A stretch of 33,798 bases of DNA, taken from the NCBI GenBank assembly GCA_016929295.1, contig JAFGJB010000269.1, positions 1 through 33,798 on the forward strand, given 5' to 3'. Numbering within the stretch: the first letter of the stretch is position 1; each line of letters starts with the position of its first letter. The stretch is from Candidatus Zhuqueibacterota bacterium. Lineage in GTDB: Bacteria > Zhuqueibacterota > Zhuqueibacteria > Residuimicrobiales > Krinioviventaceae. Positions 5,576 to 11,964 of this stretch are shown piece after piece. The position numbers and the translations under genes were made by a program. The notes below the pieces were generated by a model, which saw nothing but the letters and a program-made list of their open reading frames with translations, had not been told where the DNA came from and searched no databases.

Positions 5576-5608
5576 CTTGTTTTTGAATGAGCACCTCTCA
5601 AAAAGGCT

Positions 5609-5637
5609 TTGCGTTTTATTTTTTGTATTTATACATT
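5609..5637 (+). promoter_or_regulatory. Possible promoter for the DUF4254 gene
   Basis: TTGCGT (5609-5614) and TACATT (5632-5637) are 17 bases apart in an AT-rich stretch, about 30 bases before the AGGAGG ribosome binding site at 5660-5665. The match is only partial. Confidence 0.35.
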
Positions 5638-5669
5638 GCTCATCCGAATTCAACTGCACAGGAGGACGA

Positions 5670-6290
5670 TTGGCTTCATTATCAGAACTGCTGATACCTT
5701 TTAATGGCGCTCGACTCATCGAGTGGTTTGACGATCTGACCGAACTCTGGCATGAAACCGCTCCCTTAAAGCCCAATGATATTTCTTCGCCAAAGGGTTT
5801 GACGCAATGGATTCACTACAAGAATTTTGTCGTTTGGCACCTTGAGGAGCACGTTCGGCATGAAAAAAGCTCCAATCAGGAAATTGTTGACGCTGAAAAA
5901 ACGATTGATCTGCATAATATGAAGCGCCTCGCGGCGATCGAACAAATTGATATCTGGATCGATAATGTTTTGCAGGCGGCTGATATTTCACCGCAAGGTG
6001 AGATATTGGCGAATTCAGAAACACCTGGCAGTATAGTGGATCGCTTATCCATCCTGGTATTGAAAATTTATCATATGCGCCAGTATTTAGCGGATAAAAG
6101 TCTGGATAAAGACCTGCGAAAAACTTTGAACCTCAAAATACACATTTTGCAGGAGCAGCGAGATGATTTGGCCCGGGCAATGGACAGACTCCTGCTCGAT
6201 ATCCGGCAAGGAAAAAAACGGCATAAAGTCTATCGCCAGTTCAAGATTTACAATGATCCCAGTTTTCATCATGGGGACTATGAAGGATAG
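5670..6290 (+). CDS. DUF4254 family protein
   Basis: The 206-residue, highly charged, mostly helical protein has no signal peptide. The frame is open to 5577, but AGGAGG at 5660-5665 sits 4 bases before a TTG at 5670, and family-like sequence begins there (ASLSELLIPFNG), so TTG 5670 is chosen. Typical DUF4254 signatures are the middle segment NFVVWHLEEHVRH, the DLHNMKRLAAIEQID segment (family pattern ID-x-x-NQxRND-x-IExID) and ETPGSIVDRLSIL followed by KIYHMRQY. The family has no known biochemical role. In other bacteria it is often found beside glycosyltransferase genes, but none is visible here. It diverges from the thi operon and precedes the LarA-like gene by 27 bp. Confidence 0.85.
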   Translation: MASLSELLIPFNGARLIEWFDDLTELWHETAPLKPNDISSPKGLTQWIHYKNFVVWHLEEHVRHEKSSNQEIVDAEKTIDLHNMKRLAAIEQIDIWIDNVLQAADISPQGEILANSETPGSIVDRLSILVLKIYHMRQYLADKSLDKDLRKTLNLKIHILQEQRDDLARAMDRLLLDIRQGKKRHKVYRQFKIYNDPSFHHGDYEG

Positions 6291-6317
6291 CGGGACTGGT
6301 TGATTCGTAAATTATTT

Positions 6318-7568
6318 ATGGAAATTAAATTCCCCTACAGAGAGCATGGAGTTGCTTTTCGCCTCCCCGAAGACGCCGAGGTTTTTCATCCGGCCGTTCG
6401 CACACCCATCACCGGAACCTATATAGCAATCATAAAAAATCTGCTCAGACCTCTCGGCTACAAGCAGACGCTCTTTGACCTGGCGAAGAGATGCAAGACC
6501 GCATGTGTCGTGGCGGATGCATACTGTCCTCCGCCGGCAAACAGGCAAATTCTCAATCCGATTGTAAAGACCCTTCACGCCGCCGGCATGTCGCATGATG
6601 ATATCACCATACTTGTGACCTCCGAGTACCCCGCCGAATTCTCGCCGGAGCTCGTTCATTCCATGTTTGACGAAGAGTTTTCCCGGCGCTATCATGTGGG
6701 GGCGCACGACGTATTTGCACACTCCCAGCATGAGTTGATTGGTGAGACGTCAGGAGGAATTCCGGTCTGGCTGGACCGGCGACTCAAAATGGCCGACATC
6801 AAAATCATCACCGGGGGAATCTATCCGCATTACCTGTTTGGCTATGCCGGTGCACCGCTGCTGCCGCCTTTCGCGGTCACCGGCCTCGAAACAATCCAGG
6901 CTCTCTACGATATTGCCGATCTTGACAATGTGGATTTTCAATGGTTCGATCAAAAATCCAAATTGAGCAGCGAGTTGCTTGAAATCGTCAACCTCGCCAG
7001 GCTTGATTTTATTGTGAGCATTTCTATTGACAACTCGTTCCGCTTTATTGACATTTTTTCCGGCAAACCTTTCAGTGTCATGAAAGCGATCGGCCAGAGA
7101 CATATTGCCGCCGAATACGATGTGCTCCGCGGCAAAGCCGATATCGCCATTTCCTGTACGGGTCATTCGCACTGTGAAATGAGCTGGTATCACAATTTGA
7201 TGGGACTCTGTCTCGCGCGCACCTTTCTTAGAAATGAGGGAATTTTGATTTATATCACTCCGCTGTTTGATCAGGTCGGCGCCCGGATACGCAAGATACG
7301 AAATAAAGCGGCTTTGATTGATTTTCTGTCCACTCATAAGATGATCGACAGCACTCGAGATCGAATATTTTCTTGCCTGCAAGATGGCGTCACTGTTTTT
7401 GTCTCACCCAAACTGGGTGATGCGACGCTGAAAGATCAGTCCCGGGATGTTTTTTTCTGTTCTTCTGTAGATTCCGCACTCGCTTTTGCTGCTCAACGGA
7501 GTAAAGTCACACCACATCTGGTTTTACTGCCCGATGGTCTCTTCACTTTTCTCAGCATGTCATCGTAA
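6318..7568 (+). CDS. LarA-fold (DUF2088) protein with altered cofactor and catalytic residues
   Basis: The 416-residue protein aligns by eye with nickel-pincer lactate racemase LarA over its full length. It starts MEIKFPYREHGVAFRLP like LarA's N-terminal strands, has a VVADAY segment where LarA has its DHTRP loop, then GGIYPHYLFGYAGAP where LarA has the HFFAGFSGGRK segment, then DIAISCTGH and a C-terminal LVLLPDG. Key residues differ. The His of DHTRP is Ala68, and the lysine that binds the pincer cofactor (10 residues after the retained His171) is Leu181. It is therefore probably not a lactate racemase. The frame is open to a TTG at 6300, but homology starts at the ATG at 6318. No lar maturation genes (larB, larC, larE) are in the window. 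Confidence 0.75.
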   Translation: MEIKFPYREHGVAFRLPEDAEVFHPAVRTPITGTYIAIIKNLLRPLGYKQTLFDLAKRCKTACVVADAYCPPPANRQILNPIVKTLHAAGMSHDDITILVTSEYPAEFSPELVHSMFDEEFSRRYHVGAHDVFAHSQHELIGETSGGIPVWLDRRLKMADIKIITGGIYPHYLFGYAGAPLLPPFAVTGLETIQALYDIADLDNVDFQWFDQKSKLSSELLEIVNLARLDFIVSISIDNSFRFIDIFSGKPFSVMKAIGQRHIAAEYDVLRGKADIAISCTGHSHCEMSWYHNLMGLCLARTFLRNEGILIYITPLFDQVGARIRKIRNKAALIDFLSTHKMIDSTRDRIFSCLQDGVTVFVSPKLGDATLKDQSRDVFFCSSVDSALAFAAQRSKVTPHLVLLPDGLFTFLSMSS

Positions 7569-7735: not shown

Positions 7736-7749
7736 GAAGGAGGTGCGTG

Positions 7750-8247
7750 ATGCAAAAGATCTTCACGGTTGATCCAATAGACGTTTTGAAAATTTCCATG
7801 CAATCTGAAAAGGAAATGCGGGAATTCTATACAAAAGCGGCATCTCTGACGACGGACGATGATGCGAGATCAATAATGTCCGGACTGGCAAATCACGCTG
7901 ACGCGCATCAGCAGAATTCTATCAACATGTACACAAGGCTCAGCGGCAAAAAAATACTTTTTCTCAATCTTGACAAGAGATATAAACTGATGACGTTGCA
8001 GCGTTGTGCCGATGAATTACACGAGGCCGTTCGCGTGGCCAAGAGAAATGAAAAAGAATTGAGCAGTTTTTATTCCATGGTCGCACGACGATTTATGGAA
8101 CCGGATTTGCGGATTTTTTTTCGTAAATTGGCGACAGATCATTACCAGCACCTGACATTGTTGGAAGCATCATTCGAAGAGACGTTTGAGGATGACGAAG
8201 AAACCTCGGAAAGTATATTGGATCAAATCACTCACGAGAGCGAGTGA
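7750..8247 (+). CDS. Ferritin-like / rubrerythrin-type four-helix protein
   Basis: The 165-residue protein is all-helical. AAGGAGG at 7737-7743 is 6 bases from the ATG at 7750, which is better spaced than the in-frame GTG at 7747. Two half-repeats of the ferritin-like fold can be seen: SEKEMREFYTKAA with LANHADAHQQ, and NEKELSSFYSMVA with LATDHYQHL. The E-x-x-FY helix pattern is that of rubrerythrin-like diiron proteins. The first EExxH-type motif reads NHADAH, so one or two carboxylate iron ligands appear replaced, and no C-terminal rubredoxin domain is present. A role in iron storage, peroxide defence or sensing is possible but unproven. The neighbouring Fe-S assembly and flavodiiron genes fit an iron/oxygen-stress setting. 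The acidic tail ends just before a terminator. Confidence 0.65.
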   Translation: MQKIFTVDPIDVLKISMQSEKEMREFYTKAASLTTDDDARSIMSGLANHADAHQQNSINMYTRLSGKKILFLNLDKRYKLMTLQRCADELHEAVRVAKRNEKELSSFYSMVARRFMEPDLRIFFRKLATDHYQHLTLLEASFEETFEDDEETSESILDQITHESE

Positions 8248-8343: not shown

Positions 8344-8382
8344 AGTGGCGGAAAATGTCCAATTGTGGATGAAACGACAGCG

Positions 8383-9603
8383 ATGAATTTAATATATATG
8401 GATCATCATGCCACAACACCTCTGGATGCGGAAGTGCTTGCGGCGATGATGCCCGCATTGACCAGTGAATATGGCAATCCATCGAGCAATACGCACGCCT
8501 ATGGACATGCTGCCCGTTATATGGTCGACAGCGCGCGCGCCCAGGTCGCACAACTCGTGGGCGCGCCACGTCCGGATGATATCATTTTCACCAGCGGCGC
8601 CACCGAGGCGGATAATCTGGCTCTCAAAGGCATAGCCCATGCGAAGGATTACATGCCGGCGAGGAATATCGTCACGCTGGCGATTGAGCACAAGGCGGTG
8701 CTTGATGCTGCCAGACGGCTGCAAAAGGAGAATGTCGAGATTCGCTTCGCAGCAATTGATCCATACGGCGTCGTTGACCTGGATGACCTCGCCGCAAAGA
8801 TAGATAAAAACACGATTCTGATCTCTATACAGACCGCAAACAGTGAAATCGGCACCATCCAGCCGATCAGAGAAATTGGCGTCATCGCCAAAAAACATGG
8901 CGTGCCATTTCATACGGATGCTGTGCAGGCGCTGGGTCGCTATGAAATCGATGTCATGCGGGATCATATAGATATGCTGTCAATCTCGGCTCACAAAATG
9001 TACGGTCCAAAAGGTATTGGCGCGTTATACGTCCGACGCGGACTCAAGCTGACGCCAATCATCGATGGTGGCGGGCATGAGCGCAACATGCGTTCAGGAA
9101 CACTCAATGTTCCCGGCATCGTCGGCCTGGGGAAGGCGGCCGAGATCGCCAAACGTGATCTCAAATCCGAAAGTGAGCGCCTGCTGAAACTGCGTAACCG
9201 ACTTGAAGATGGCATCCTGCGTCGCATTGAGCATGTCAGGATAAACGGTCACCCGACAAACCGTCTGCCCAATAACTTGAATGTCGCTTTTGCCTATGTC
9301 GAAGGAGAATCGTTGATTTTAGCCTGTCGAGGGGTGGCATTATCTTCCGGATCAGCGTGCACGTCGACATCCCTGCAATCATCCTATGTGCTCAAGGCGA
9401 TCAATGTGCCCGATTTTTTGGCGCATGGCTCACTGCGATTTGGTCTTGGCAAGAGCAACAGCGAAGAACACGTTGATATCGTGCTCGATTTATTGGAGAA
9501 AGGCGTGCGGCGGCTGAGAGAGATGTCGCCTTTGTATGATATGGCCAAAGAAGGCGTCAGCATCGAAAGTGCTCACTTTTCTCGTCATGCGCGGGGCAAA
9601 TGA
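8383..9603 (+). CDS. iscS: Cysteine desulfurase (IscS/NifS type, group I)
   Basis: This PLP enzyme removes sulfur from cysteine and passes it to the IscU scaffold. The 406-residue protein starts MNLIYMDHHATTPLD, the usual NifS/IscS opening. It has TSGATEADNLA (PLP phosphate), HTDAVQALGRYEID, the PLP lysine in SAHKMYGPKGIGALY, RSGTLNVPGIVG, and the mobile-loop catalytic cysteine in LSSGSACTSTSLQSS, which is the group I (IscS-like) form. An in-frame GTG at 8365 is possible, but 8383 is the first ATG and fits the family. The start overlaps with iscU at the 3' end by 4 bases, so the two are co-translated. The C-terminus runs about 20 residues past the conserved core. Confidence 0.93.
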   Translation: MNLIYMDHHATTPLDAEVLAAMMPALTSEYGNPSSNTHAYGHAARYMVDSARAQVAQLVGAPRPDDIIFTSGATEADNLALKGIAHAKDYMPARNIVTLAIEHKAVLDAARRLQKENVEIRFAAIDPYGVVDLDDLAAKIDKNTILISIQTANSEIGTIQPIREIGVIAKKHGVPFHTDAVQALGRYEIDVMRDHIDMLSISAHKMYGPKGIGALYVRRGLKLTPIIDGGGHERNMRSGTLNVPGIVGLGKAAEIAKRDLKSESERLLKLRNRLEDGILRRIEHVRINGHPTNRLPNNLNVAFAYVEGESLILACRGVALSSGSACTSTSLQSSYVLKAINVPDFLAHGSLRFGLGKSNSEEHVDIVLDLLEKGVRRLREMSPLYDMAKEGVSIESAHFSRHARGK

Positions 9604-10004
9604 TGGATGCCTGGGACGATTATTCGGAAAAGGTGATGGATCACTATGAAAATCCGCGCAATGTTGGCATCGTCGAAAAAGCCAACGGCACGGGTGTCGT
9701 CGGCAATCCCGCTTGCGGTGATGTGATGAAATTAACCATCCGCGTTGAGAATGACATCATTGTGGACGCCAAATTCAAAACTTTTGGCTGCGGCGCTGCC
9801 ATTGCGACCAGCTCCATGGTCACCGAAATGGTCAAAGGCAAGAGCCTTGCGGATGCGCTGGAGATCTCCAACAGAGGAGTGATGGAAGCGCTCGGCGGCT
9901 TGCCAAAGGTCAAACGACACTGCTCTGTCCTGGCGGAAGAGGCCCTCAAAGCGGCCATTGCTGACTATGAAAAAAACCGGCGCGATATTTCCCCTGCCGC
10001 ATGA
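9600..10004 (+). CDS. iscU: Fe-S cluster assembly scaffold (IscU / NifU N-terminal type)
   Basis: The 134-residue scaffold holds the three conserved cysteines in GNPACGDVMKL, FGCGAAIATSSM and KRHCSVLAEEAL, plus the adjacent Asp of ACGD, and starts with YSEKVMDHYENPRNVG. It receives sulfur from IscS and builds [2Fe-2S] or [4Fe-4S] clusters. It lacks the bacterioferredoxin and Nfu domains of full-length NifU. Two successive ATG codons (9600, 9603) overlap the iscS stop, so the exact start is uncertain by one codon. No iscA, hscA, hscB, fdx or iscR follows, so this is a minimal ISC pair. Clients nearby include LipA. Confidence 0.93.
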   Translation: MMDAWDDYSEKVMDHYENPRNVGIVEKANGTGVVGNPACGDVMKLTIRVENDIIVDAKFKTFGCGAAIATSSMVTEMVKGKSLADALEISNRGVMEALGGLPKVKRHCSVLAEEALKAAIADYEKNRRDISPAA

Positions 10005-10065
10005 CAGAATAGAAGAGATCTATTTTTACAAATTCACCGAGCAAACTGGCTCTTGAGAGGTCTTG

Positions 10066-11247
10066 ATGAAACCCTTTGCAATAAAAAATAATGTCTACTG
10101 GATCGGCGCCCTGCATCCCGATCTGCGCGTATTCGACATCATCATGACGACGAAAAATGGCACAACCTATAACAGTTACCTCATCAAGGATGAAAAGACG
10201 GTCGTGATTGACACGGTGAAAGAGAAATTTGCCGAACAATACATTGAGCATATCGCGACTTTAATCGATATAAAAAAAATTGACTATATCGTCGTCCAGC
10301 ACAGTGAGCCGGACCATTCCGGCAGTCTGCTGGCACTTTTGGACGCAGCACCAAACGCCAGAGTGGTGTGCGCCAAGGCGGCGGTCAGATATGTTGAAAA
10401 CATCACCAACGCTTCCATCGATATCGAATCGGTCGCAAACAAAGACATTCTGGCACTCGGATCACGGTCACTGCAATTTTTCACCACGCCATTCTGCCAT
10501 TGGCCGGATACCATGATGACCTATCTCATCGAAGAAAAAATGCTGTTCCCCTGCGATATCATGGGATCTCATTTTTGTGACAGTCGGATGTTCGACGATC
10601 TGATCGCTCGCGATTTCTGGCCGGATTTCAGATACTATTTCGATTACATCATGCGCCATTATAAGAAGAATGTCGGCAATGCCCTGCAGAAAACACGGGA
10701 TCTGCCGCTTGAGATCATCGCACCATCGCACGGTCCGATCTTGCGAATGAATGTGCATCGCTACATCGATGCTTACGAGGAATGGTGCCGGCCTCTGGCG
10801 GCGAATGAGCCGCGCAAAATGCTCATCTATTTTGCCTCGGCATATGGTTATACCGGCATGATGGCGAAAAAAATCGCCGAGGGCGCACGCTCCGCAGGAG
10901 TGCAGGTTGACATCTTTGATGCGTGTGAAATAGATGTCCAGCAGCACATCGACCTGCTGGAGCAGGCGGATGCCGTGCTGCTCGGCTCGCCGACGATCAA
11001 CAATAATGTCGTCAAGCCCGTATGGGATGTTTTGAATGCCATGATCACCATTGATGTCAAGGGAAAGATCGCGGCGAGCTTTGGCTCTTATGGCTGGAGC
11101 GGCGAGGCCGTCGAGCAGCTGGATGGGCGGCTGCAGGCGATGAAATTTAAGGTCCCACATGAAGGCATAAAGGCGATCCTGGCGCCAAATGATGAAGAAC
11201 TGCAGGCCTGTTTTGATTTTGGCTGCAAGATTGCCAGTTCGATGTGA
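10066..11247 (+). CDS. fprA: Flavodiiron protein (A-type flavoprotein, O2/NO reductase)
   Basis: The 393-residue cytoplasmic enzyme reduces O2 to water and/or NO to N2O in anaerobes. The N-terminal metallo-beta-lactamase domain carries the diiron ligands His79-x-Glu81-x-Asp83-His84 (QHSEPDHSG), His145 in FCHWPD, Asp164 in FPCDIMGSH and a His in PSHGPI. From about residue 250 a flavodoxin domain begins (IYFASAYGYTGMMAKKIA) with FMN loops at GSPTINNN and FGSYGWSGEA. There is no C-terminal rubredoxin or flavin reductase extension, so it is class A and needs a separate electron donor. GAGAGG lies 5 bases before the ATG at 10066. It sits 61 bp after iscU, consistent with protecting Fe-S enzymes from oxygen. 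Confidence 0.94.
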   Translation: MKPFAIKNNVYWIGALHPDLRVFDIIMTTKNGTTYNSYLIKDEKTVVIDTVKEKFAEQYIEHIATLIDIKKIDYIVVQHSEPDHSGSLLALLDAAPNARVVCAKAAVRYVENITNASIDIESVANKDILALGSRSLQFFTTPFCHWPDTMMTYLIEEKMLFPCDIMGSHFCDSRMFDDLIARDFWPDFRYYFDYIMRHYKKNVGNALQKTRDLPLEIIAPSHGPILRMNVHRYIDAYEEWCRPLAANEPRKMLIYFASAYGYTGMMAKKIAEGARSAGVQVDIFDACEIDVQQHIDLLEQADAVLLGSPTINNNVVKPVWDVLNAMITIDVKGKIAASFGSYGWSGEAVEQLDGRLQAMKFKVPHEGIKAILAPNDEELQACFDFGCKIASSM

Positions 11248-11256
11248 AAGTGGTTC

Positions 11257-11964
11257 ATGGATAGCATGGAAAGGCAAAGTGTGGAGTCGGCGGAAACGCA
11301 GGTGCTGGATTTCGGCCTTGTTCGGCTGGTTGATTTCATGGGAGGCGATGCGGCTGTCGTACAATCCGCGCGAGTTTCATTCGGCAAAGGAATTACCGAT
11401 GATGAGCGCGACAGGAAACTTGTTTTTTTCTTATTGGCGAATGGTCACGAAACGCCATTTGAACATTCGGTTTTCAAGTTTCATATCAAATGCCCCATCT
11501 TTGTCGCGCGGCAATGGTTTCGTCATCGCATGGCAAGCTATAATGAAATTTCCGGTCGCTACACCGAAATGAAAGAGGAACTCTGTCTGCCGGAGCGATT
11601 GCGTACGCAAAAGGCGAGGAATTATCAGTACGATGAGCTCGATGCGGATCTCAATGACGAGCTCAAACAAAAAATCAGCGATCACTACGATGCGTCATTC
11701 CGGCTCTACCGCGAACTGCTGGAAAAGGGTGTGGCAAAAGAACAGTCGCGTATCGTGCTGCCGCTGTCGCTTTATACCCAGTTCTACTGGACCATAAACA
11801 GTCGTTCATTGATGAATTTTGTCAAACTGCGCATCGAGGCGCACGCGCAATATGAAATACGCCAGTACGCCGAGGTTATCAATGAGATCTTCAGAGAAAA
11901 AATGCCCTGGACGCACGCAGCCTTTCAAAAATATGTCATATCCGGAGAAAAATGGTGCGAGTAG
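11257..11964 (+). CDS. thyX: Flavin-dependent thymidylate synthase
   Basis: ThyX methylates dUMP to dTMP using methylene-tetrahydrofolate with FAD and NADPH. The 235-residue protein carries the ThyX signature RHRMASYNEISGRY at residues 89-102 (consensus RHRxxSxNExSxR), preceded by NGHETPFEHSVF and followed by the C-terminal SRIVLPLSLYTQFYWT and IEAHAQYEIRQYA segments. It begins 9 bases after fprA with no clear ribosome binding site and overlaps lipA by 13 bases, so it is part of the same transcript. Using ThyX rather than ThyA avoids producing dihydrofolate and is common in anaerobes. Confidence 0.95.
   Translation: MDSMERQSVESAETQVLDFGLVRLVDFMGGDAAVVQSARVSFGKGITDDERDRKLVFFLLANGHETPFEHSVFKFHIKCPIFVARQWFRHRMASYNEISGRYTEMKEELCLPERLRTQKARNYQYDELDADLNDELKQKISDHYDASFRLYRELLEKGVAKEQSRIVLPLSLYTQFYWTINSRSLMNFVKLRIEAHAQYEIRQYAEVINEIFREKMPWTHAAFQKYVISGEKWCE

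Follow-up and report, generated by a model that had tools for sequence, protein, structure and literature searches.

A LarA-family protein without the nickel-pincer nucleotide site in a conserved chromosomal slot of candidate division KSB1

Results

A LarA homologue with an altered active site

The window analysed here is a 33,798-nucleotide stretch of the Candidatus Zhuqueibacterota bacterium assembly GCA_016929295.1 (contig JAFGJB010000269.1, positions 1 to 33,798, forward strand). It encodes a protein (P0001) that is homologous to the lactate racemase LarA and lacks the residues that hold the LarA cofactor, the nickel-pincer nucleotide (NPN). The gene and its altered site segments, the latter assigned by alignment, are as follows.

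6318..7568, + strand: LarA-derived protein without NPN site (P0001), 416 aa plus stop, homologous to LarA over its full length
6516..6533, + strand: DAYCPP, residues 67-72, in place of CDITRP; D72 is A68 and R75 is P71
6624..6632, + strand: EYP, residues 103-105, in place of G-x-H; H108 is P105; present in all three site-less copies
6828..6830, + strand: H171, equivalent to the catalytic H174, kept
6840..6860, + strand: GYAGAPL, residues 175-181, in place of GFSGGRK; the NPN lysine K184 is L181
6906..6908, + strand: Y197 in place of the nickel ligand H200; Tyr in all three site-less copies
7155..7202, + strand: C280 to M295, CTGHSHCEMSWYHNLM; Y294 is kept (Y291), Q295 is H292 and K298 is M295

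The reading frame is open, with codons at 6318-7565 and the stop extending to 7568. The ATG at 6318 agrees with the alignment to the congener described below, and an in-frame TTG lies at 6300. A preliminary description of the sequence had proposed a LarA architecture, and this was borne out: Pfam Lar_N matched the protein with 75.8 bits (E 3.5e-21), the best match in the PDB was LarA_Ip (9eid, E 1.1e-33), and profile-profile comparison with LarA aligned 410 columns across both domains at 100% probability. Pfam LarA_C alone scored below its cut-off (12.4 vs 25 bits), and the NCBIfam LarA equivalogs NF033504, NF052593, NF052595, and NF052525 scored 106, 108.9, 108.1, and 88 bits against cut-offs of 460, 500, 462, and 540, respectively. 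With Lar_N, a C-terminal domain, and sequence homology along its full length, the protein belongs to the LarA superfamily.

Site residues were numbered as in LarA_Lp, and the numbers were verified on an alignment with 5huq. We aligned first 30 homologues and then 101 LarA-family places from 82 genomes of the phylum, all found at E 1e-5 or better except a second place in the window's own genome (E 1.3e-5). Residue roles were taken from passages of PMC11770544, PMC7583248, PMC12611868, and PMC11851776; PMC12611868 gives H108 and H174 as the catalytic histidines. The window protein differs from LarA at seven of nine functional positions (D72 replaced by A68, R75 by P71, H108 by P105, K184 by L181, H200 by Y197, Q295 by H292, and K298 by M295), and only H174 (H171) and Y294 (Y291) are kept. 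All three NPN-holding residues, R75, K184, and H200, are thus gone (P71, L181, and Y197), and the catalytic set D72, H108, H174, and K298 reads A68, P105, H171, and M295, with H171 alone retained. LarA_Ip, a short-chain 2-hydroxy acid racemase of Isosphaera pallida (PDB 9eia, 9eid, 9eif) that resembles the window protein in its two-domain sequence homology, retains Lys183, His199, Arg73, His107, His173, Gln295, and Lys298, whereas the window protein has equivalents of His173 and Tyr294 only. According to PMC11851776, LarA_Ip contacts the substrate carboxylate through Arg73, Gln295, Lys298, His107, and His173; His173 alone of these has its equivalent in the window protein.

The stretch from D160 to D198 aligns with full-site relatives without gaps. 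Therefore, the NPN lysine has not simply shifted along the chain, and no substitute lysine was found near K184 in this gap-free sequence alignment. The preliminary description had correctly read GFSGGRK as GYAGAPL with Leu181 at the lysine position and His171 as kept. Its claim that Ala68 replaces the catalytic histidine was mistaken, since this column is D72 and the lost catalytic histidine is H108 (P105); the DAYCPP loop is indeed changed from DHTRP, but it holds D72 and R75 rather than that histidine. The segment corresponding to NGGYPLD is also changed, although the partner is TGHSHCE and the proposed CTGHSHC is off by one. The loss of the NPN site that it proposed was real and understated, as R75 to P71, H200 to Y197, Q295 to H292, and K298 to M295 had been missed.

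Distribution of the site-less copies

Among the 101 LarA-family places, 88 keep all six of D72, R75, H108, H174, K184, and H200, and 13 lack one or more of them. Three of the 13 are the window gene (genome G000), a copy in a congener (G043, 69% identical), and a copy in a sister genus (G042, 34% identical). The congener copy (L003; also record RQOI01000659.1, L036) carries the same site changes as the window gene, and we therefore reject chance or an assembly error in a single genome. The residues E103, Y104, P105, H171, Y197, E287, and Y291 are invariant across the three copies, and at position 292 (Q295 in LarA) the congeneric pair has His and the sister-genus copy has Leu.

The other ten (L067, L072, L073, L076, L081, L085, L090, L094, L104, and L106, families f12/f13) have likewise lost the NPN lysine along with other site residues. 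In a FastTree phylogeny they differ from the trio in forming a separate clade attached to a different LarA type, and their site loss was apparently an independent event. Scans of viral contigs turned up neither relatives nor additional alignment rows.

Two Cys/His-rich loops had been put forward as a metal site, which would make the product a metal-binding protein (C70; C280/H283/H285/C286). The congener retains C280, H285, C286, and H292 but has Ser at C70 and Asn at H283, and no loop residue is present in the G042 copy. The proposal is therefore weak: a metal site may be possible in the window's genus only, and as an account of the protein it is improbable.

Phylogeny and number of losses

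In an LG+C20 posterior mean site frequency (PMSF) tree of 44 of the 101 rows, the three site-less copies form one clade (100/100), so homologs with the same substitutions group together as the preliminary description had asked, and this clade is joined to nine full-site LarAs (100/99) that occupy the same chromosomal slot. A tree built from eight proteins encoded nearby, sampled in 11 genomes, also placed G000, G043, and G042 as sisters (100/99). The nine slot LarAs share 140 invariant columns. All three site-less copies retain 39 of these and the congeneric pair retains 48, while 12 have changed to one common new residue in all three, including D68A, H105P, H197Y, and G103E (the D72, H108, and H200 positions are among them). 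These common replacements favour one ancestral event. The site was probably lost once, and convergent loss in the three copies is less likely.

Conserved slot and neighbouring genes

The order DUF4254–LarA–ferritin-like–NifS is conserved within the order of candidate division KSB1. The slot neighbours in the window are as follows.

5577..6290, + strand: DUF4254 protein directly upstream (Pfam PF14063, E 3.9e-37; the true start may lie further in), slot partner in 12 genomes of the order
7747..8247, + strand: ferritin-like (rubrerythrin-type) protein downstream (PF02915, E 1.2e-8), conserved slot partner
8365..11964, + strand: NifS/IscS, NifU/IscU, a flavodiiron-type protein, and ThyX, a conserved block downstream (domain matches and slot comparison)

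In 12 genomes of the order, LarA lies between DUF4254 and the ferritin-like gene; it is full-site in nine of them (L005-L013) and site-less in three. NifS also lies within the examined flank in 11 of the 12 slot copies, L006 being the exception. A syntenic full-site LarA, like the window protein, is closest to LarA_Ip among PDB entries (E 5e-144). The suggestion that site-less homologs always sit beside DUF4254 or ferritin-like genes held for all three copies. However, these neighbours also flank all nine full-site slot copies, and the neighbourhood therefore does not mark site loss.

Two observations concern the partners themselves. The C-terminal stretch KRHKxYRQFKxYNDP of the DUF4254 protein is strongly conserved in nearly all slot copies. 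In the ferritin-like partner (window 7747-8247 and its slot homologues), inspection by eye showed that two clear ExxH motifs are missing in most aligned copies; we take these motifs to be the signature of a diiron site, which may thus be incomplete.

Genes for cofactor synthesis

None of larB, larC, and larE was found over cut-off in G000, G043, or G042, so the co-occurrence that would have spoken for NPN loading was not seen. Across the 82 genomes of the phylum, LarC (PF01969) was found in 33, LarB in 25, and LarE in 26; most of the genomes behind these counts are incomplete or draft assemblies. Among 61 genomes with full-site LarA, 37 have none of the three genes, 17 have all, and 7 have some, and 21 of the 24 carriers of CDITRP/CDVTRP-type LarA (L005-L028) have none. 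The window's genome itself has a second LarA-family protein (L002:817-2118, - strand) with a full NPN site (DHTRK, GFGGGPK), again with no larB/C/E found. Since 37 of 61 genomes with full-site LarA also lack these genes, their absence is not decisive; it provides a background against which loss of the site could occur and does not prove the cause. The frequency of full-site LarA without larB/C/E suggests that those organisms scavenge NPN, have a different pathway, or use a different cofactor.

An NPN enzyme that holds its cofactor without K184, R75, and H200 would be a further reading of the window protein. The phosphate-binding Arg, the nickel-ligand His, the catalytic His108, and Lys298 have been lost together, and larB/C/E were not found in the genome; we regard this as the most improbable of the readings considered.

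Selection on the window gene

The window gene and its congener are 69% identical, with no frameshift over 416 aligned codons, and both copies are intact. The ratio of nonsynonymous to synonymous substitution rates (dN/dS) was 0.103 (NG86) or 0.082 (YN00), and 16 neighbouring genes of the same genome pair gave 0.070-0.202 (NG86). Codon positions 1+2 differ at 0.175 and position 3 at 0.522. The low dN/dS, together with change at positions 1+2 far below that at position 3, indicates that the gene is maintained in the window's genus, where it is under purifying selection.

Discussion

The window protein most likely does a different, cofactor-free job, and annotating it as 'lactate racemase' would be wrong. 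The reading that we favour, with moderate confidence, is that a positional orthologue of full-site LarA lost the NPN site once and became an NPN-free protein, non-catalytic in the LarA sense, with a binding, regulatory, or structural role. The ancestor would have been a LarA-type racemase with a full site, encoded at this chromosomal position, and the nickel-pincer site would have been lost in one episode in the common ancestor of the two KSB1 genera. The resulting protein would no longer use NPN and would be dead as a racemase; it probably retained the two-domain LarA fold and may partner its operon neighbours by binding a ligand or in a regulatory or structural capacity. A bolder reading, less likely than not, is that in a lineage without NPN synthesis genes the slot LarA may have lost its site once and been rebuilt to work without NPN on a new ligand or in a new activity, its operon partners remaining unchanged.

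Several observations weigh against the favoured reading. The stem branch of the site-less trio is very long (2.19, LG+C20 PMSF), and FastTree, with a simpler model and all 101 rows, placed the trio with other LarA types (support 0.77); we set this placement aside in favour of the site-heterogeneous model. Approximately unbiased (AU) tests did not reject trees that hold full-site LarAs together without the trio, whether all 16 of the slot type (p 0.059) or the nine in the slot (p 0.237), and the nesting of the trio among the slot LarAs is suggested by the PMSF tree rather than formally secured. The dS between the window gene and its congener is 1.88, near saturation. AlphaFold2 on the window protein plus congener gave a mean predicted local distance difference test (pLDDT) score of 42.2, which is unusable as a structure. 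Gene position is the only pointer to a binding role and to a partnership with DUF4254 and the ferritin-like protein. The G042 copy (L033:8098-9366) has an in-frame TAG after 373 aa, followed by about 50 more homologous codons, which is either a recent truncation or an assembly error and fits decay there. In the congeneric pair, identity in the former pocket (39/51) was not significantly higher than elsewhere (246/365, p 0.26), and no specific new pocket emerged.

The TAG and the long stem branch, together with the missing NPN synthesis genes, are what a pseudogene decaying after access to NPN was lost would leave. Both congeners are intact over the aligned codons, however, and their dN/dS of 0.10 is similar to that of neighbouring housekeeping genes. 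In the window's genus, this value and the open frame largely refute a pseudogene, which is very unlikely overall.

The pocket comparison bears on a neofunctionalised enzyme, in which H171, E103, Y197, Y291, and (in the window's genus) H292 would form the core of a pocket rebuilt for a reaction without NPN. Purifying selection and the seven residues invariant in the three copies agree with such an enzyme, as does H292, which replaces Q295 in the congeneric pair at a position of carboxylate contact in LarA_Ip. However, H292 is Leu in the sister genus, the AlphaFold2 model is unusable for showing a pocket, and conservation in the pocket does not significantly exceed that elsewhere in the protein, unlike in four full-site LarA pairs, where it clearly does (p 0.019 to 0.00013). 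Because conservation no longer singles out the old pocket, we prefer a binding or structural role and consider a new enzyme unlikely.

LarA relatives without NPN are already known in kind. In the 2020 study by Desguin and colleagues (PMC7583248), LarAH groups 12, 13, and 16 were set aside because their catalytic and NPN-binding residues are not conserved, and they were judged unlikely to use NPN. The window protein resembles these groups, by their description, in the loss of site residues and differs in that its full-site type can be traced in the same chromosomal slot. The single-histidine LarA subfamily (PMC12611868) also has an altered active site; in that subfamily, Asn takes the place of the second His alone and the proteins still use NPN, whereas the window protein keeps that His and has lost the NPN residues. 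PDB entries 9q2u, 9q3j, and 9q3k are probably structures of that subfamily. In the open-licence literature, we found nothing that pairs 'lactate racemase' with 'pseudoenzyme' or with 'KSB1'.

To these known cases, the present analysis adds a case in which a full-site gene was replaced in place, together with evidence that selection keeps the changed protein. Since the same slot is full-site in close relatives and site-less in two genera, the change can be dated and can be tested by gene swap. The analysis also highlights how many KSB1 genomes encode a full-site LarA yet have no NPN synthesis genes.
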